Below the pieces are notes generated by a model. The model searched no databases. It had not been told where the DNA came from and worked only from the letters and a program-made list of their open reading frames with translations. The translations under genes were made by a program, and so were the position numbers. Below are positions 8,262-16,588 of a DNA stretch of 64,000 nucleotides, one piece after another. Every line of letters begins with the position of its first letter. Position 1 is the first letter of the stretch. The stretch is from Idiomarina aquatica (GTDB lineage Bacteria > Pseudomonadota > Gammaproteobacteria > Enterobacterales > Alteromonadaceae): assembly GCF_004362895.1 (NCBI RefSeq), contig NZ_SNXI01000007.1, positions 1 to 64,000 on the forward strand. The letters run 5' to 3'.

Positions 8262-8630
8262 TTATAGAACTTCTGGTGCCAGCGAGATAATTTTCATAAA
8301 CTGCTCTGAACGCAGCTCACGAGTTACCGGCCCGAAGATACGAGTACCAATGGGCTGTTGGTTGTTGTTTAACAACACAGCCGCGTTGCGGTCAAAACGG
8401 ATGACCGACCCGTCTTGACGACGGACGCCTTTTCTGGTGCGAACGACCACCGCATTAACAACATCACCTTTCTTCACCTTACCGCGCGGAATTGCTTCCT
8501 TGACAGTAACTTTGATGATATCGCCGATGTTTGCGTAACGGCGGTGCGAACCACCTAGAACCTTAATACATTGTACGCTGCGCGCGCCGGAGTTATCGGC
8601 AACGTCCAGGGTAGTTTGCATTTGGATCAT
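8262..8630 (-). CDS. rplN: 50S ribosomal protein L14
   Basis: L14 lies at the subunit interface and contacts 16S rRNA. The 122-residue product starts [19 protein letters not shown] and contains [20 protein letters not shown]. It is the first gene of the spc operon. Upstream on this strand there is no rpsQ: the divergent Mrp operon begins 296 bases away, so rplN depends on a promoter in that gap. Confidence 0.97.
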
Positions 8631-8649
8631 TTCAGTGCCCCGCTTAGTT

Positions 8650-8672
8650 AAAAAAACAGACCCTCTCGGGTC
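8650..8672 (-). promoter_or_regulatory. hairpin with T-run in the rplN leader
   Basis: Read on the minus strand, GACCC, loop GAGA, GGGTC, then TG and seven T. It resembles a weak intrinsic terminator (5-pair stem) 20-42 bases before the rplN ATG, downstream of the candidate spc promoter. It could be an attenuator; the short stem makes this uncertain. Confidence 0.35.
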
Positions 8673-8711
8673 GTGCTGCCTTTGGTTTTTCCCTTATAAA
8701 AAGGGCGGCGA

Positions 8712-8720
8712 ATTGTAACA
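8712..8720 (-). promoter_or_regulatory. candidate spc-operon promoter, extended -10
   Basis: The minus strand reads TGTTACAAT, an extended -10 element (TG, one base, TACAAT). No good -35 is visible 17 bases upstream, which is acceptable for extended -10 promoters. Transcription would start about 75 bases before rplN. A promoter is required here because the S10 operon ends 7.6 kb away. Confidence 0.5.
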
Positions 8721-8926
8721 GATAAAAATACGATGTGGTAGGGCTATCTTACTTTTTTTCTTAACTGACGGTGAAACGACATGGTTTTGCTGTCGGATTC
8801 AGTTGGCAGTAAACCGCTGGGATGGTAAATTCGTACTCAAGACGTTCAAATTTAAACATATAAAGCGCCTAATAATCAATCACTGAGCTTTACCACTGGG
8901 AATGGCAACAGGAATTAAAAGAGCCT

Positions 8927-11716
8927 ATGAATTTACTCTTTATTATCATGGCGCCGCTTTTCGGAGCGTTGCTACCGTTATTGTTTAAACGTACTCCTCG
9001 CGCAGTACAAACATTGATTACGTTGGCGGTGCCGCTCAGCTGCATTGCCGTATTACTCAATTACGCTCCTGCCACTTTTGCCGGCGATGTACCCAAACAG
9101 TTTGTCGAGTGGCTTCCTGCGCTGGGGCTTAACTTTGCCTTGCGTCTGGATGGACTGTCATTGTTGTTTGTGAGCCTCATCCTTGGAATTGGTGTGCTCA
9201 TTATTGGTTATGCCCACTACTACTTGTCCCGTGATGATGACGAGGGCCGCTTCTACGCCTGTTTGCTGCTGTTTATGGCCTCTATGCTGGGTATCGTCAT
9301 GGCAGACAACATTCTGCTGATGTGGGCCTTCTGGGAGCTAACCAGTATTTCGTCGTTCCTGTTAATTGGCTATTGGTTCCATAGCAGTGATGCACGCCGT
9401 GGTGCACGGATGGCATTAGCCACTACCGGTGCAGGCGGTTTAGCGCTACTGGCCGGGCTATTGTTGATTGGCAATATCGCCGGTAGTTATCAGTTTGATG
9501 CGGTACTAGCCGCAGCCGATACCATCAAAAACCACGATTACTACGCTACGGCTTTAGTACTGGTGTTACTGGGGGCATTTACCAAATCCGCACAGTTCCC
9601 GTTCCAGTTTTGGTTACCTCATGCCATGGCAGCCCCAACACCAGTAAGTGCTTACTTGCACTCAGCTACCATGGTCAAAGCCGGTATTTTTCTGCTTGCC
9701 CGGTTCCATCCGGTTTTAGGTGGCACCGAGATGTGGCTAACTATCGTTACTGTGGTTGGCTTAATAACCATGTTAGTGGGTGCCTACTTTGCGCTACTAA
9801 AGCACGACCTAAAAGGGTTACTAGCTTTCTCGACTGTTAGTCATCTGGGCTTAATTTGTATGTTGCTTGGCATCGGTACAGAGGGAGCCATTGTTGCCGC
9901 GCTGTTCCACATTATTAACCATGCCTGTTTTAAAGCCGCGTTGTTTATGACCGCAGGTATCATTGACCACGAGAGCGGCACACGTGACATGCGCAAGCTA
10001 CAGGGACTAATGGGATTAATGCCCTTGACCGCGACACTGGCTATGGTTGTCGCCGCCTCAATGGCTGGGATACCGCCATTTAACGGCTTTATGTCTAAAG
10101 AGTTGTTCCTGGATCAGGCTGTGCAGCAACACTTGTTTGGTGGTTTGTCATGGTTTGTGCCTATTTTGGCTACCGTTGGCGCGGCACTATCGGTGGCGTA
10201 TTCGATTCGCTTTATTCATGACGTATTTTTTAATGGCGACTATAAAGAATTACCGAAGAAGCCTCACGACCCGCCACGCATGATGTCGGCACCCGTCGCT
10301 ATTCTGGCTATTATGTGTATAGCCATTGGTCTCGCGCCCATGACCATGGTGTCCGGCATATTAGACGTCGCAGCCAGCTCGGTAACCAATGCCAGTACAA
10401 CGGTTAAGTTGTCCTTGTGGCACGGTTTTAATTTACCGCTACTGATGAGTTTTGTCGCGGTCGTTGCCGGCATCTTAATTTATGCCGCGCGGGATCAATT
10501 ATTTACCTTTAACCGACAGTTTGATGGCCAGGATGCAAAACATAATTTCGAACGTATCGTACAACGCATCAGCGACCGCGCAGCACAGTTGTTTGATCGG
10601 CTTGATACTGGCTCCCTGCAACGTTACGTCGCTTTTGTGCTGATCAGCGTTATCGTCATCATGTTGCCGTCATTAATTGACCTTAGTGCCATTACCGGCG
10701 GAAAACCACAGCAACCTATTGATGTCGTATCGATGGTTGGCGCCATCGTACTAATTGCTGCCGCATTTGCGACCGCAACCCTACACCGTAACCGGTTTGT
10801 GATGTTGATGATGCTGTCTGTCGTTGGCCTGATGGTATCGCTAGCGTTTGCTCATTTCTCAGCTCCTGATTTGGCCATGACACAGTTAGTGGTCGAGGTC
10901 GTCAGTATTGTTTTGATGATTTTGGCACTCTTCTTTATGCCACAAAAAACTGCGCGGGCATCGAGCGGGCATCGGGTATTCCGGGATATTATTATTGCCA
11001 GCTTTATAGGTGGGATCGTGGCAACCCTCAACTTTGCCATTTTAACCTCACCCGCCGAGTCCATCTCTGACTTCTTTATTGCCAATGCCAAAATCGGCGG
11101 TGGTGGCACCAACGTGGTCAACGTCATACTGGTCGACTTTCGTGGCTTTGACACGCTCGGCGAGATCACTGTGTTGGCGATTGCCGCTGCGGGTATTCAT
11201 AAACTGCTGAATAAACTGAAGCCGTTTATGCCATCCAGCGATGTTGACGGGCGTCCATGGCACCGCATTAAACACCCGTTAATGCTAACTAACGTGGCTA
11301 ATTTGGTATTACCGATGGCAATGATGGTTGCGGTTTATATTTTCTTACGCGGCCATAACTTACCAGGCGGGGGCTTTATCGCCGGGCTTATCGCCGCCTC
11401 CGCTATGATCTTGCAATACATCGCCAATGGCGTCGACTGGGTTAAAGGGCGCTTTAACGTTAACTACCAGTCGTTAATGTCCATTGGGGTGATGATTGCC
11501 GCGCTGACCGGCCTGGGTAGCTGGCTATTTAGCAAGCCATTTTTAACCAGTTGGTTCACTTACCTAAAATGGCCCGTGGTTGGGAAGTGGGAGTTCGCGA
11601 CCGCGCTACTCTTTGATCTCGGTGTGTTCCTAACCGTTATCGGCGCGACCATGATGATTCTCAGTAACTTTGGCAAGATGACCACTCGCCACCGTCCAAC
11701 GTACGAGGGCAATTAA
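8927..11716 (+). CDS. mrpA: Mrp Na+/H+ antiporter, fused subunits A and B
   Basis: This is the large membrane subunit of the Mrp (Mnh/Sha/Pha) cation/proton antiporter, a relative of NuoL of respiratory complex I. The 929-residue protein has a proton-antiporter core with PTPVSAYLHSATMVKAG near residues 236-252. A MrpA C-terminal region (FSAPDLAMTQLVVEVVS) lies near 645-660. From about 775 on there is a MrpB-like domain containing GHNLPGGGFIAGL near 808. No separate mrpB exists, so A and B are fused, as in many proteobacteria. AGGAA lies upstream of the ATG. The stop overlaps the next start (TAATG). Confidence 0.95.
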   Translation: MNLLFIIMAPLFGALLPLLFKRTPRAVQTLITLAVPLSCIAVLLNYAPATFAGDVPKQFVEWLPALGLNFALRLDGLSLLFVSLILGIGVLIIGYAHYYLSRDDDEGRFYACLLLFMASMLGIVMADNILLMWAFWELTSISSFLLIGYWFHSSDARRGARMALATTGAGGLALLAGLLLIGNIAGSYQFDAVLAAADTIKNHDYYATALVLVLLGAFTKSAQFPFQFWLPHAMAAPTPVSAYLHSATMVKAGIFLLARFHPVLGGTEMWLTIVTVVGLITMLVGAYFALLKHDLKGLLAFSTVSHLGLICMLLGIGTEGAIVAALFHIINHACFKAALFMTAGIIDHESGTRDMRKLQGLMGLMPLTATLAMVVAASMAGIPPFNGFMSKELFLDQAVQQHLFGGLSWFVPILATVGAALSVAYSIRFIHDVFFNGDYKELPKKPHDPPRMMSAPVAILAIMCIAIGLAPMTMVSGILDVAASSVTNASTTVKLSLWHGFNLPLLMSFVAVVAGILIYAARDQLFTFNRQFDGQDAKHNFERIVQRISDRAAQLFDRLDTGSLQRYVAFVLISVIVIMLPSLIDLSAITGGKPQQPIDVVSMVGAIVLIAAAFATATLHRNRFVMLMMLSVVGLMVSLAFAHFSAPDLAMTQLVVEVVSIVLMILALFFMPQKTARASSGHRVFRDIIIASFIGGIVATLNFAILTSPAESISDFFIANAKIGGGGTNVVNVILVDFRGFDTLGEITVLAIAAAGIHKLLNKLKPFMPSSDVDGRPWHRIKHPLMLTNVANLVLPMAMMVAVYIFLRGHNLPGGGFIAGLIAASAMILQYIANGVDWVKGRFNVNYQSLMSIGVMIAALTGLGSWLFSKPFLTSWFTYLKWPVVGKWEFATALLFDLGVFLTVIGATMMILSNFGKMTTRHRPTYEGN

Positions 11717-12057
11717 TGGAAACACTCTATTCAGTCACTGTCGGTATATTGACCGCGTGTAGCATCTTTTTAATTCTCCGTGGCCGTTCATTCCCGGTTG
11801 TGGTGGGTATTACTATGCTTTCTTATGCAGTTAATCTGTTTCTGTTTTCGACCGGACGCCTGACTATCGATGGCGCGCCCATACTCGGAACGCAAGACAG
11901 CTACGCCGATCCGCTGCCTCAGGCATTGGTGTTAACGGCTATAGTTATCGGTTTTGCGATGACGGCGTACTCGATTATTCTTGCCGTGCGCACCCGTGGC
12001 GAAGTCGGCACCGACGAAGTCAGTGATTCAGATAGTTCATCGGAGGGTAAACGCTGA
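11716..12057 (+). CDS. mrpC: Mrp antiporter subunit C
   Basis: MrpC is a three-helix membrane subunit related to NuoK. The 113-residue protein carries DPLPQALVLTAIVIGFAMTA, the conserved MrpC/NuoK block, near residues 68-87. A hydrophilic acidic tail follows (DEVSDSDSSSEGKR). Its ATG overlaps the mrpA stop and its TGA overlaps the mrpD ATG, so translation is coupled along the operon. Confidence 0.94.
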   Translation: METLYSVTVGILTACSIFLILRGRSFPVVVGITMLSYAVNLFLFSTGRLTIDGAPILGTQDSYADPLPQALVLTAIVIGFAMTAYSIILAVRTRGEVGTDEVSDSDSSSEGKR

Positions 12058-13580
12058 TGTTGCAACAACACCTTGCTATATTACCCATTCTGATTCCGCT
12101 ATTTGCTGCATTATTGCAGTTATTACCCTGGGGCAACCGACCGCAGCCTAAGCGCCGTGCCATCGGCCTATTGGCCAGTATTTTAACGCTAATTGCTGCG
12201 GTTGCACTGTTAGTCGAAGTGCAGCAACAAGATATGCTGGTGTACTTATTGGGCAACTGGGATGCTCCCTTTGGCATCGTACTGATGGTAGACCGTCTCA
12301 GCGCGCTAATGATGCTGATAACCGCAGTGTTAGCTCTACCAGTATTGATTTATGGTTGTTACGCAGAAGATAACCTCGGGTCGCACTTTCAGGCGCTTTA
12401 TCAATTCCAGATTATGGGCATCATGGGTGCCTTTGCCACTGGCGATATCTTCAACCTGTTCGTGTTCTTCGAGGTATTACTTATTTCGTCGTATGCCTTG
12501 ATGATGCATGGTGGCGGTAAATTCCGCGTGCGCGCAACGCTGCATTATGTGCTACTTAATCTATTAGGTTCAGCACTATTTTTAATTAGCATCGGAGTAC
12601 TCTACGGCGTAACCGGCACACTCAATATGGCAGATATGGCGGTGAAAATTCAGTCACTGACCGGCGACCAGGCAATGTTAGCTAAAGCGGGCTCGTTAAT
12701 GCTGCTAATTGTCTTCGGCCTGAAAGCCGCAATACTGCCACTGCATTTTTGGTTACCGCAGGCATACTCAACAACCACCGGCGTGGTCGCGGCATTATTC
12801 GCCATCATGACAAAGGTTGGCGTGTACTCAATTATCCGCGTTTACTCGCTAATATTTGGCGCTGACGCTAATGAGTTAGCGTTGGTTGCTCATGACTGGC
12901 TATGGATTATGGGCTTGTTAACATTAGTTGCCGGTGCTATCGGTATACTTGCAGCGCGCGATCTACGACTGATGGTGGCTTATTTAGTCGTTATCTCGGT
13001 GGGCACGCTGGTGGCGGCCTTCAGTCTGTCATCAGCAGCCACTACCGGCGCCACGCTATTTTATCTGATTCATTCCACTTTTATTACGGCAGCACTGTTT
13101 TTACTCGCCGACCTGATGGCCTTTGAACGGGGTAAGACAGCCTCCCGTATTGTCTCGGGTAAGAAAATGGCAAACCATTCGACCTATGCGACATTCTTTT
13201 TGATCGGCGCGATTGCCATTATTGGGCTACCACCACTCTCAGGGTTCGTATCTAAATTGATGATACTTGAATCCGCTGCTGCCAATGGCCATAACTTCTG
13301 GCTTTGGGGCGCGATTATCGGCGCTACTTTCGTCATGCTGGTAGCAGTCACGCGTGCGGGCAGCAAAATGATTTGGCATACCCTATCCGGCAAAGCATCT
13401 GAGCAGTCGGCGCCACTGGGTAAACGAATAGCACTGGCTTCGTTATTATCACTGACCTTATTAATCAGTATTTTTGCCAACCCTATCCGTCAATATACCG
13501 ATGCGGTTGCTGATCAGTTAACTGACGTCGATAGTTATCCGGTTCATGTGTTAAAACGCGCGGGAGGTGAACATGAATAA
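12057..13580 (+). CDS. mrpD: Mrp antiporter subunit D
   Basis: MrpD is the second large antiporter-like subunit, related to NuoM/NuoN and, with MrpA, thought to carry ion channels. The 507-residue polytopic protein has LKAAILPLHFWLPQAYSTTT near residues 220-239, then AALFAIMTKVGVYSIIRV, typical of the family. It ends KRAGGEHE, and those last codons contain the ribosome-binding site and start of mrpE. Confidence 0.95.
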   Translation: MLQQHLAILPILIPLFAALLQLLPWGNRPQPKRRAIGLLASILTLIAAVALLVEVQQQDMLVYLLGNWDAPFGIVLMVDRLSALMMLITAVLALPVLIYGCYAEDNLGSHFQALYQFQIMGIMGAFATGDIFNLFVFFEVLLISSYALMMHGGGKFRVRATLHYVLLNLLGSALFLISIGVLYGVTGTLNMADMAVKIQSLTGDQAMLAKAGSLMLLIVFGLKAAILPLHFWLPQAYSTTTGVVAALFAIMTKVGVYSIIRVYSLIFGADANELALVAHDWLWIMGLLTLVAGAIGILAARDLRLMVAYLVVISVGTLVAAFSLSSAATTGATLFYLIHSTFITAALFLLADLMAFERGKTASRIVSGKKMANHSTYATFFLIGAIAIIGLPPLSGFVSKLMILESAAANGHNFWLWGAIIGATFVMLVAVTRAGSKMIWHTLSGKASEQSAPLGKRIALASLLSLTLLISIFANPIRQYTDAVADQLTDVDSYPVHVLKRAGGEHE

Positions 13581-14061
13581 GCTGATGCCCGCCCCACTAC
13601 TCAGCGCATTCTTATTACTGATATGGTTGTTGTTATTTAACTCTCTCAGCGCCGGTGTAGTGCTATTGGGCGTAGTCTTCTCTTTGTTAATACCGATACT
13701 GTTACGTCCGGCCTGGCCTCATTTTGCAGAGGTTAAAAAACCGCATTTAGCCGTAATTTACTTCTTTATCTTGCTGTTTGATATCGTTGTCGCCAACTTT
13801 AAAGTCGCAGCCCTTATTTTAGGTAGTCGCAAAAGCATCAAGCCGGCCTTTTTTGTTTACCCGTTAGACATGAAAGAAGAACTGCCGGTTACCATCCTTG
13901 CCAGTACTATAACCCTCACACCAGGTACAGTATCTTGTGAAATAACACGAGGCAGGAAGGGCATTCTGATCCATGCGTTTTCGGAAGACGATCCAGAGCA
14001 AGTGATCAATACGATCCGTCACCGATACGAGCGCCGTCTAAAGGAGATATTTGAATGCTAG
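13573..14061 (+). CDS. mrpE: Mrp antiporter subunit E
   Basis: MrpE is a small membrane subunit needed for full Mrp activity. The ATG at 13573 sits 5 bases after GGGAGG; an in-frame GTG at 13567 lies inside that site and is less likely. The 162-residue product has two N-terminal membrane spans, then FFVYPLDMKEELPVTILAST and ITLTPGTVSCEI, typical of MrpE. It overlaps mrpD by 8 bases and mrpF by 7. Confidence 0.93.
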   Translation: MNKLMPAPLLSAFLLLIWLLLFNSLSAGVVLLGVVFSLLIPILLRPAWPHFAEVKKPHLAVIYFFILLFDIVVANFKVAALILGSRKSIKPAFFVYPLDMKEELPVTILASTITLTPGTVSCEITRGRKGILIHAFSEDDPEQVINTIRHRYERRLKEIFEC

Positions 14062-14324
14062 GTACTATTTTGCAAATTGCATTTTTGTTGTTCAGCCTAT
14101 CGATATTAATGAACCTTTGGCGGCTGGTTAAGGGGCCCGATTTGCCCGACCGGATACTGGCATTGGATACTATTTATATCAATTCGCTGGCACTGCTTTT
14201 ACTACTGGGCATGTTCCAAAATACACAAACTTACTTTGAGGCCGCATTGCTGATTGCAATGTTTGGTTTCGTTGGCACCATTGCTGCCGGTAAGTTCTTG
14301 TTACGTGGCGACCTCATCGAGTAA
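14055..14324 (+). CDS. mrpF: Mrp antiporter subunit F
   Basis: An 89-residue protein with three membrane spans and the MrpF motif KGPDLPDRILALDTIYINS near residues 26-44. MrpF belongs to the Mrp complex in the inner membrane. AAGGAG inside the end of mrpE lies 8 bases before its ATG. mrpG follows after 11 bases. Confidence 0.93.
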   Translation: MLGTILQIAFLLFSLSILMNLWRLVKGPDLPDRILALDTIYINSLALLLLLGMFQNTQTYFEAALLIAMFGFVGTIAAGKFLLRGDLIE

Positions 14325-14335
14325 GGAAGTTAATT

Positions 14336-14710
14336 ATGGAAACGCTTAATGCACTACCCGTGTGGAGCCAATGGCTTATTGGCTTTTTTATCCTGTTAGG
14401 ATCTGTGTTTGCCTTTATCGGTTCGCTGGGCTTGGCGCTTTTACCTGATTTTTTTACCCGTTTACATGCGCCGACAAAAAACACCACGCTGGGTATCGGC
14501 GGTATCGTTATTGCATCGATTATCGCAACATCGGTGCAAGGCTCCGTCACCCTAAGTGAACTTCTTATTGCCATATTTTTATTCCTTACGGCACCCATTA
14601 GTGCACACATCATGGCAAAAGCAGCGCTACATACCGAGCTGAAGATGTTCTCTCGTACCCGGGATTATCGTCAAAAGGGTGACGCCTACGAACACGAAAA
14701 AGCCGACTAA
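14336..14710 (+). CDS. mrpG: Mrp antiporter subunit G
   Basis: The 124-residue protein has three membrane spans. It contains the MrpG pattern FIGSLGLALLPDFFTRLHAPTK (split here as GLALLPDFFTRLHAPTK, residues about 32-48), followed by TLGIGGIV. AAGGAAG precedes the ATG. It ends the six-gene operon, so all subunits A to G are present. The last codons form half of a terminator stem. Confidence 0.93.
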   Translation: METLNALPVWSQWLIGFFILLGSVFAFIGSLGLALLPDFFTRLHAPTKNTTLGIGGIVIASIIATSVQGSVTLSELLIAIFLFLTAPISAHIMAKAALHTELKMFSRTRDYRQKGDAYEHEKAD

Positions 14711-14725
14711 ATGTCGGCTTTTTTT
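14697..14725 (+). terminator. terminator shared by mrpG and the porin gene
   Basis: AAAAAGCCGAC, loop TAAAT, GTCGGCTTTTT forms an 11-pair stem with T7 on plus and A-run partner on minus. It includes the mrpG stop codon. The convergent porin gene ends 18 bases further, so it can serve both. Confidence 0.85.
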
Positions 14726-14742
14726 AACGTAGTTGAGTTGCT

Positions 14743-16164
14743 TTAGAAGTAGTAACCGAAGTTAATGTTAAAGCGGTCATTAACCTCACCACCATCAGTA
14801 GCAATGTTACCGCCAATAAACGGCTGGTTTTTCGCTCTCACGTAATCGACATAGGTATAAAACCCGCCACCTGCAGCTACGGCTACACCGAGAACATTCA
14901 TCCAGGTGTCGTCCTGATAGCCGGCTTTGTCGGTAATGATACTGTGGTCATTGTAGAAGGTTAAACTGGTAATTGGACCGATATCGGTAGGTAGCGTGTA
15001 AGCAACGTTACCGGTGTATATTTTCGCCTCGGTCGGAATTGCGTCATAGTAGGCATAAGCCCCCATATACACACCGCGGTTTTCTACTTCCAGGTCATAC
15101 TCGTAATCAGCATACTGTAATTGAACGTTCCACGGACCGTTGTTGTAGTTCGCGTGTGCGCCCCATGCAAAACGGTTGCCTACGTTCTGATCATTGTATT
15201 GCGAGTATGCTTCAAATCCCTCTGCGGCAGTACCGGAATAGAAATTATTGCCCTGCGCTGACAAACCAACTTCCAGGTTGTGGTCATCGGTGAAGTGGAA
15301 TACCCGTGCACCCCGAACGGCATAGCTGTTGCTCTCACCGATAGCAAGACCCGGCGTGTCATAAGCACCCTGACCTGGTAGCCGTATACCAACGCTGTCG
15401 TAGTTATAACGCGCGGTGCGATCGCTGGTTGACCCGTCTACACCCCCCTGTTCGTCCGACTTATGGTAAGCAATGTCAAACTGCCAGTCGTCGTCGCGAT
15501 AGAGTAAGCGAATACCGTTGTCGTGTTCATCTTCTAAACCAACATAAAAGGTCGAGTTAAAGAAGTAGCTGTGTGAGTTGTATGGCAAGTTACCAAAGGG
15601 TACTTTGACCACACCTACCTGGCCCTGCCAATTTTCAGTGAAGTTATAGCCGAACCAAGCATGTTTAACCGAATCCATATAATGGAACCAACGATACTCA
15701 GCTGACAGGATCACGTCGCCAATTTCGCCGTCAAAGTTAAGACGGAAGATATCGAAGTCCAGGTCACCCGTGCGATTTTCGTTACCTTGGTTGTAGTTAT
15801 TGTACTCATACTGAAAACGTACCGCACCGTGCACCTTTATTGGCCAGTTCTCATTTTCTTCAGTTTTGTCTTCAAGTTTCGCCAAACGAGCCTGAACACC
15901 GGAGTCAGCGCTGTTTTCGCGTATTGACTGACGTTGTTTGCTATCCGTTTGTTTATATTCTTTGCGCGTCACCATTTGCTCATGACGCTCCTGCATTTTT
16001 TCCTTCTGCGCTTCTTGCTCTGCTAGGCGCTGCTCAAGTTCAGCAAGTTTCTGTTTTAGCATCTCGATCTGGGTTTGCACGCTTTGATCATCTTGCGGCG
16101 CCGCAGAGGCGAGAATTGGGGATGCAGCGAACACCGACGCTGCGAGTATCCATCCTTTTGCCAT
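14743..16164 (-). CDS. outer-membrane porin with coiled-coil N-terminus
   Basis: The predicted 473-residue protein starts at ATG 16164, 6 bases after AAGGAG; longer readings lack a site. A signal peptide (MAKGWILAASVFAASPILASA) is followed by a coiled coil of about 70 residues rich in Q, E and K (LKQKLAELEQRLAEQEAQKE). From about residue 95 there are alternating aromatic strands (KVHGAVRFQYEYN) typical of a beta-barrel, ending in GYYF with a terminal phenylalanine for BAM insertion. The layout resembles trimeric porins with an N-terminal coiled coil. Substrate is unknown. It is convergent with mrpG and follows rpsQ beyond a terminator. Confidence 0.8.
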   Translation of the reverse strand: MAKGWILAASVFAASPILASAAPQDDQSVQTQIEMLKQKLAELEQRLAEQEAQKEKMQERHEQMVTRKEYKQTDSKQRQSIRENSADSGVQARLAKLEDKTEENENWPIKVHGAVRFQYEYNNYNQGNENRTGDLDFDIFRLNFDGEIGDVILSAEYRWFHYMDSVKHAWFGYNFTENWQGQVGVVKVPFGNLPYNSHSYFFNSTFYVGLEDEHDNGIRLLYRDDDWQFDIAYHKSDEQGGVDGSTSDRTARYNYDSVGIRLPGQGAYDTPGLAIGESNSYAVRGARVFHFTDDHNLEVGLSAQGNNFYSGTAAEGFEAYSQYNDQNVGNRFAWGAHANYNNGPWNVQLQYADYEYDLEVENRGVYMGAYAYYDAIPTEAKIYTGNVAYTLPTDIGPITSLTFYNDHSIITDKAGYQDDTWMNVLGVAVAAGGGFYTYVDYVRAKNQPFIGGNIATDGGEVNDRFNINFGYYF

Positions 16165-16198
16165 AAATAGCTCCTTAGTTTGGCGAGACGTAGCGACC

Positions 16199-16207
16199 AT
16201 TATAACA
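16199..16207 (-). promoter_or_regulatory. candidate porin promoter, extended -10
   Basis: The minus strand reads TGTTATAAT, a perfect extended -10. The -35 region is poor (AAAATT at 17 bases). The start would lie about 30 bases before the porin ATG, and downstream of the S10-operon terminator, so the porin has its own transcript. Confidence 0.6.
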
Positions 16208-16271
16208 ATCGCTTACTTCGAAATTTTAGTATAACTCGCTGACTAATACCGATATTTATATTATTTAGATC

Positions 16272-16306
16272 AAAAAAAAGGCCTCCGCAAGGAGGCCTTT
16301 TTGTTA
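16272..16306 (-). terminator. terminator of the S10 operon after rpsQ
   Basis: GGCCTCC, loop GCAA, GGAGGCC with T8 on the minus strand. It lies 19 bases after the rpsQ stop. It separates the S10 operon from the downstream porin gene and from the distant spc operon. Confidence 0.9.
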
Positions 16307-16324
16307 TTTAGTCGTTATCTGCGT

Positions 16325-16588
16325 TTAGACAACAGTAGCTTGCTCAACAACTTCAACCAGTGTCCAAGACTTATTCTTAGACAATGGACGTGATTCGCGA
16401 ACAATCACGATATCGCCCATTTTGCACTGATTGTCTTCGTCGTGTGCGTGTACTTTAGTTGTACGCGAGATGTATTTACCGTAGACCGGGTGCTTAACAC
16501 GGCGCTCTACAGCTACAGTGATGGTCTTATCCATCTTATCGCTGACAACTTTGCCTTGCAGTGTACGAATACGTTTATCTTGAGACAT
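16325..16588 (-). CDS. rpsQ: 30S ribosomal protein S17
   Basis: S17 binds the 5' domain of 16S rRNA early in assembly. The 87-residue protein has [20 protein letters not shown] and [18 protein letters not shown], both typical. It is the last gene of the S10 operon, as in E. coli, and is followed at once by a strong terminator instead of continuing to rplN. Its ATG touches the rpmC stop. Confidence 0.97.

Follow-up and report, generated by a model that had tools for sequence, protein, structure and literature searches.

Salt-related genes at the boundary of the S10 and spc ribosomal protein operons in Idiomarina and Pseudidiomarina

The insertion of genes between ribosomal operons, followed later by full disconnection, is described in Brandis 2021 (PMC8046335), whose abstract presents it as the general pattern. 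A locus of this kind was analysed here in a stretch of 64,000 nucleotides (the window) at the start of contig 7 (NZ_SNXI01000007.1) of the 2.95-Mb draft genome of Idiomarina aquatica, where a six-gene group-2 Mrp antiporter operon on the forward strand and a porin-like gene on the reverse, ribosomal strand occupy the 7,694 bp (8631-16324) between rpsQ and rplN. As in the cases of that paper, a few genes lie between two intact operons which are disconnected in relatives: the window has intact flanks and an insert under 10 kb, while the later disconnection is met with in related genomes. In contrast to those cases, the content is salt-related, and the rpsQ side carries two non-orthologous pairs of a betaine/carnitine/choline transporter (BCCT) gene and a porin gene in different branches. 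Term searches of its main text return neither Alteromonadales nor Idiomarina; the supplementary tables may list the event. At the level of search listings, the literature on Idiomarina with Mrp, the S10 operon, osmoadaptation and gene order contains no account of the locus, no paper containing both mrpA and rplN was found, and passages of PMC10893183 and PMC13272253 leave the place of the locus unmentioned. The class of event is already known; we would regard as new the salt-related genes it involves here, the association of BCCT with the porin and the repeated occupation of a single site.

Group-2 Mrp (Pha-type) operons share with the operon described here a fused A/B gene and a total of six genes, A(B)CDEFG; the window copy is set apart from them only by its place, where it is transcribed divergently from spc. 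Salt tolerance is served by both kinds of transporter, Mrp antiporters exporting Na+ or K+ in exchange for protons and BCCT carriers taking up betaine-type solutes, and these roles suit the halophilic Idiomarina. The window itself has no BCCT gene. In relatives such a gene is found at the same boundary, beside the porin gene, and its products at loci L092 and L051 match the family PF02028 with 656 and 640 bits. The L092 protein passes the TIGR00842 cut-off and, with a score of 592.9 against 650, falls short of NF047988, a model for glycine betaine. The phosphate-selective porins (Porin_O_P) match 16 of the 38 rows of the porin alignment weakly (E <= 0.01; best 6.5e-7); the window protein is not among these and differs further by its coiled-coil-like N-terminus and by the BCCT neighbour in relatives.

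Taken together, the data are most probably explained by an insulated seam between the two ribosomal operons, which took up self-contained salt genes in a common ancestor, the block being inherited vertically afterwards. A comparison of the rpsQ-rplN interval across relatives, as proposed in the preliminary description of the window, places mrp and the porin gene between rpsQ and rplN in all 18 Idiomarina genomes that have the interval on one contig, with gaps of 7.7-13.7 kb (19 genomes, G000-G018; repeat loci of the same genomes were counted once), and mrpA adjoins rplN in 19/19. The two-block form of the window is present in 13 of the 18, the remaining five carrying extra genes. In G001 (I. 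seosinensis), G008 and G009 (I. fontislapidosi), genes for a TonB receptor and a tetratricopeptide repeat-sulfotransferase protein stand between mrpG and the porin gene (L035:3423-9324; L036:12003-16482; L041:11866-16345), accompanied in G001 (L035) by a DbpA-type helicase gene. The complete genome G005 has an IS4-family transposase gene between porin and rpsQ (L049:16613-17998), and a BCCT gene occupies that position in G012 (I. xiamenensis). BCCT also stands beside the porin gene in G014 (I. tyrosinivorans), on a contig which ends after it, rpsQ being at the end of another contig. An assembly artefact at one block edge, the alternative named in the preliminary description, is hardly conceivable and was rejected, as the same joins are seen in assemblies made independently, including four made up of a single contig (G003, G005 with its extra insertion sequence, G016 and G017).

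In Pseudidiomarina (26 genomes assigned to the same genus as P. planktonica, with rplN found in 25 and rpsQ mapped in 13), mrpA lies divergently beside rplN in all 25 genomes in which rplN was found. P. planktonica retains the connected form rpsQ-BCCT-porin-mrp-rplN within 9.3 kb. The ribosomal operons are apart in 11 of the 13 mapped genomes: in the complete genome G070, rpsQ (469 kb) lies about 110 kb from rplN (358 kb), and ten further genomes have at least 9 kb behind rpsQ without spc or mrp genes; G073 is cut by a contig end. BCCT follows rpsQ in 10 of the 12 genomes with enough sequence, and the porin gene follows BCCT in nine of these ten, P. planktonica being included in both counts. 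The order rpsQ-BCCT-porin is also seen in four genomes of the same group (g51), two of which are repeats of genomes already counted. The distribution in the two genera agrees with the earlier view of an ancient insertion and a lineage marker, and makes the block an ordinary lineage trait, the outcome that the preliminary description had itself named as its refutation. At L093, mrpG is followed by Flp/Tad-like genes, all under model cut-offs, and a similar run of gene sizes occurs in other species. The record NZ_CP074112 (L095) bears the name Idiomarina loihiensis SN11 but is probably misnamed, since both its MrpA and its genus assignment place it with Pseudidiomarina.

A quick MrpA tree, supported by the Shimodaira-Hasegawa-like approximate likelihood ratio test (SH-aLRT) only and built from 11 Idiomarina, 12 of 13 Pseudidiomarina and 22 of 54 outside loci, unites the proteins of the two genera in one clade (SH-aLRT 100), with each genus monophyletic and P. 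planktonica basal, apart from those of Halomonadaceae and other Alteromonadaceae. Because MrpA of both genera forms one clade, we read the mrp history as a single acquisition or relocation that would have preceded the split of Idiomarina and Pseudidiomarina. A recent mobile island, or a horizontal transfer of the whole block into the source strain, could draw on the transposase gene of G005 and on a BCCT-porin pair of another genus (G091, L242 and L264), which is nested among the Idiomarina pairs, lies away from rpsQ and shows that the pair can move; this G091 pair is likely a transfer out of Idiomarina. Such a transfer of the entire block is nevertheless very improbable in view of the vertical MrpA tree, the genus-wide conservation, the native guanine-cytosine (GC) content and codon use and the lack of edge repeats in the window, and it was rejected on the tree and on composition. 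The mrp genes resemble ordinary neighbouring genes in GC content and codon use; in the codon-usage comparison suggested earlier, with ribosomal genes as reference, they score 0.47-0.53, three neighbours 0.47-0.66 and the porin gene 0.61. At the window locus, the open reading frame (ORF) list, the Pfam scan and the repeat search yielded no integrase, transposase or flanking repeat, as previously reported, and the search of intergenic stretches gave no repeat pair spanning both block edges.

For the BCCT proteins encoded at the seam, a single clade was rejected by the approximately unbiased (AU) test (p = 0.00036; 19 of the 22 BCCT rows, with G091, G204 and G206 dropped), a value that is optimistic as the group was named after the first tree had been seen. 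On this phylogenetic evidence, the BCCT of most mapped Pseudidiomarina is non-orthologous to that of P. planktonica and Idiomarina. It follows from the rejection that the site behind rpsQ would have received BCCT-porin pairs at least twice, or that an earlier pair at the site gave way to another. For the porins, the resolution of the tree is too low for arrivals to be counted.

The preliminary description assumed that S10 and spc are usually contiguous, which does not hold in Alteromonadaceae. Of 17 other family genera, each represented by one genome, 14 have an open rpsQ-rplN seam and three have contiguous operons (G021, G026 and G035, the last with a gap of 167 bp). The gap is small (1.1-2.8 kb) in four genera (G019, G025, G028, G031), and rpsQ and rplN are apart in 10/17, the rpsQ contig ending after 3.7 kb in G027 and after 7.1 kb in G033. 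Among other families, likewise one genome each, 20/23 are contiguous (20-299 bp) and G042, G043 and G053 are not; neither gene was found in G038. The difference between the family and the other families is significant by the Fisher test (p = 1.5e-5) with genera treated as independent. Since rnr-rlmB lies upstream of rplN, at varying distance, in 9/10 of the fully separated family genera, these may descend from one split, so that the test overstates the evidence. DUF4397 proteins are encoded between rnr-rlmB and rplN at L155 (just under the cut-off), L158, L159, L161 and L162. In genus g11, the porin gene follows rpsQ in 14/14 genomes in which rpsQ was found (17 searched), and rplN comes directly after it in all six where the stretch reaches that far; in G028, the sole g11 genome checked for Mrp, the best match (39%) is on another contig. 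In G030, a Porin_O_P gene divergent from rplN was not counted, as it has no similarity to the window porin.

Living genomes would thereby present a series of stages in the coming apart of a conserved cluster: contiguous operons in G035, a lone porin gene in g11, the BCCT-porin-mrp block in P. planktonica and the basal Idiomarina, then additional inserts and, finally, full separation in most mapped Pseudidiomarina. Several points weigh against the proposed history. No mechanism of insertion is visible in the window, in the form of a transposase or edge repeats, and mrp alone in a connected rpsQ-rplN gap was found in none of the genomes seen. The order of porin first and mrp second would follow from parsimony, a loss of mrp in the porin-only g11 being an alternative. 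The BCCT gene and rpsQ of I. tyrosinivorans are on different contigs; two metagenome-assembled Pseudidiomarina genomes (L186/L198 and L187/L199) have neither BCCT nor porin by rpsQ, P. taiwanensis (L196) has no porin within 9 kb, and in G005 the IS4 insertion leaves no terminator to be detected in the 120 nt behind rpsQ.

We see the rpsQ-rplN boundary as an insulated seam, in which S10 appears to have its own terminator and spc its own promoter. A terminator was detected 3' of rpsQ in 42 of 45 relatives (single detector, 120 nt downstream), compared with 0/83 after rplP or rpsC, 0/58 after rplN or rplX and 9/450 in shuffles; it went undetected in G005, G037 and G041. Its presence in all three contiguous genomes of the family (G021, G026, G035) indicates that the rpsQ terminator is independent of the insertion. 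The spc -10 and the mrp promoter are both kept in 44 aligned Idiomarina and Pseudidiomarina sequences, and the spc -10 can be recognised by eye family-wide, in contiguous and open genomes alike. The scanner returned 11 promoters in total against 13.4 in shuffles, which is no excess, and it is therefore conservation that gives the promoter calls their weight. A GC-rich discriminator, such as that of the spc promoter, would imply stringent control. The transcription signals of the preliminary description, namely terminators after rpsQ and mrpG and extended -10 elements for the porin gene and rplN, were all recovered, while the porin start was moved from 16200: translation most likely begins at 16164 (ATG after AAGGAG), since the extended -10 at 16207-16199 overlaps position 16200. 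The terminator shared by mrpG and the porin gene is absent from the scanner output and was identified by reading the sequence.

With the seam insulated in this way, neither ribosomal operon would be harmed by an insertion. Self-contained genes could land between rpsQ and rplN without disturbing the expression of ribosomal proteins, and the ancestor of Idiomarina and Pseudidiomarina would have carried a BCCT osmolyte transporter gene and the porin gene on the ribosomal strand and an Mrp operon facing away from rplN. During the subsequent vertical inheritance the BCCT gene would have been lost in most Idiomarina, including the source strain; some species would have gained the TonB receptor and sulfotransferase genes or the IS4-type transposase, and in most mapped Pseudidiomarina a break of the block between the porin gene and mrp would have separated S10 from spc. 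All units would be transcribed from promoters of their own, with Mrp expelling cations against protons and the porin probably admitting osmolytes through the outer membrane. A terminator combined with a promoter as a safe landing site is a simple and testable explanation.

It could be argued instead that the linkage is selected: an advantage in expression or dosage would retain the genes for osmolytes and ions at the seam, with back-to-back promoters or S10 read-through coupling ion balance to growth rate. In favour of this, mrpA remains beside rplN in all 44 genomes (19 Idiomarina, 25 Pseudidiomarina) while other joins broke repeatedly, the spc and mrp promoters are both conserved, and two BCCT types that are not orthologous occur downstream of rpsQ, where 14/14 g11 genomes have a porin gene. 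Yet a terminator separates rpsQ from the next gene in nearly all relatives, and zero rplN-mrpA breaks against roughly five elsewhere is not significant (our own estimate is p of about 0.13). In five complete genomes the locus lies at 0.56-0.59 of the distance from dnaA to the opposite point (0.67 for rpsQ of G070); with dnaA taken as the origin, this mid-replichore position leaves no origin-proximal gain in dosage, and that variant was rejected. Selected linkage is thus considered unlikely. A stronger form, in which the 3' end of S10 is a preferred docking site where two non-orthologous BCCT-porin lineages and possibly the g11 porin settled independently, Mrp became locked to the spc promoter and the whole acts as a salt-adaptation island tracking ribosome synthesis via leaky termination and back-to-back promoters, seems similarly doubtful. 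Neutral tolerance of the seam is likelier than selected co-location, because transcription looks insulated, the locus is mid-replichore and the codon use of mrp is ordinary. As for the linking of ion homeostasis to the ribosomal cluster of which the preliminary description speaks, a functional tie to ribosome synthesis is unsupported, every unit having its own terminator or promoter.

The preliminary description missed two things: BCCT was once part of the block, as it still is in relatives, and it appears to partner the porin. Of 196 family genomes searched for the porin, 60 had a match; among the best 30 of these 60 loci, eight are Idiomarina without BCCT and five belong to g11, and in 14 of the remaining 17 BCCT adjoins the porin gene (the other three are L256, L257 and L258). 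With four seam Pseudidiomarina excluded, the two genes adjoin in 10/13 of these loci, in either order. In G091, G153 and G210, which have BCCT upstream, no rpsQ was found within about 3 kb upstream of BCCT. As BCCT adjoins the porin elsewhere too, there is good evidence from gene neighbourhood that the porin serves the BCCT transporter, and the unnamed porin family would thereby be given a predicted function, that of working alongside BCCT osmolyte transporters. G035, a genome with contiguous operons, has a BCCT-porin pair about 15 kb from its mrp operon; this pair was considered as a precursor of the seam block, but its BCCT is of a third type in the AU analysis. Pfam and NCBIfam gave no match for the window porin at 0.001, and nothing resembling a porin turned up at E <= 10. 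Sequence searches against solved structures returned no porin either, and the weak matches that they gave fall mostly in the coiled-coil part. Residues G470, Y471, Y472 and F473 are invariant across the 38 alignment rows; the signal peptide and C-terminus were assessed by eye.

The features of the locus are listed in Table 1. The gene calls agree with the interval of 7.7 kb described earlier, with Mrp on the opposite strand and the porin gene on the ribosomal one, and in the ORF list the S10 and spc/alpha gene runs are uninterrupted on either side, so that the insertion lies exactly at the operon boundary and breaks neither operon, as had been stated.

Table 1. Genes and putative transcription signals at the rpsQ-rplN interval of the window
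Feature	Position	Strand	Basis and remarks
rplN (L14), spc gene 1	8262..8630	-	PF00238, 188.9 bits; TIGR01067 over cut-off
Hairpin GACCC-GAGA-GGGTC in spc leader	8659..8672	-	Signal scan; recurs in many relatives
Putative spc promoter	8712..8720	-	Extended -10 TGT-TACAAT, then GC-rich discriminator; read by eye
Putative mrp promoter	8803..8831	+	TTGGCA-17-TAAATT, TG preceding -10; signal scanner
mrpA with fused B domains, 929 aa	8927..11716	+	Proton_antipo_M, MbhD, MbhE, MnhB
mrpC	11716..12057	+	PF00420; NCBIfam PRK09094 over cut-off
mrpD	12057..13580	+	PF00361; PRK12666 over cut-off
mrpE	13567..14061	+	PF01899; PRK08965.1-2 over cut-off
mrpF	14055..14324	+	PF04066; PRK06161 (K+/H+ antiporter subunit F) over cut-off
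mrpG	14336..14710	+	PF03334; PRK12674.1-5 over cut-off
Terminator common to mrpG and porin gene	14697..14723	.	AAAAAGCCGAC-TAAAT-GTCGGCTTTTT; read from sequence
Porin-like outer-membrane protein, 473 aa	14743..16164	-	Apparent signal peptide, coiled-coil-like N-terminus, C-terminal GYYF
Putative porin promoter	16199..16207	-	Extended -10 TGT-TATAAT; read from sequence
S10 operon intrinsic terminator after rpsQ	16275..16302	-	Strong hairpin and T tail; scanner
rpsQ (S17), last S10 gene	16325..16588	-	PF00366; TIGR03635 over cut-off

The Mrp operon had been described as seven genes, A to G; the operon stands, and its gene number is six, with A and B in one chain (MrpA against NCBIfam PRK12648: 1313.1 bits, cut-off 1104). 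The C, D, E, F and G subunits are all present, each over its NCBIfam cut-off, in genes that overlap or are closely spaced, and by gene content the set with fused A/B is assigned to the group-2 Mrp/Pha operons. Among the subunit models, that of F is named K+/H+ and the others Na+/H+, names that do not establish cation specificity. The source genome encodes one MrpA, whose closest match among the loci compared is a protein of Idiomarina aquatica (93%); PF00361 has two further matches in this genome, to MrpD and to a distant frame of contig 2 that is 25% identical to MrpA. Six further genomes of Alteromonadaceae (G020, G023, G024, G027, G029, G035) also have an operon of this type, at a distance from both rplN and rpsQ. 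The mrpA match of G011 (C16:70987-73773) contains one reported TAG stop.

The hairpin of the spc leader has a GNRA-like loop and lies about 42 nt upstream of rplN. Rfam holds no family for it. Its stems vary on both sides among relatives (GACCC/GGGTC, GACTC/GAGTC, GGTCTG/CAGGCC), and a best-stem search of 67 leaders gave a mean score of 10.8 against 5.7 in shuffles, some leaders being without a hairpin; it is possibly a leader element of the spc mRNA. In addition, an exact 17-nt direct repeat, which may be due to chance, connects 12980-12996 in mrpD with 16304-16320 just after rpsQ.

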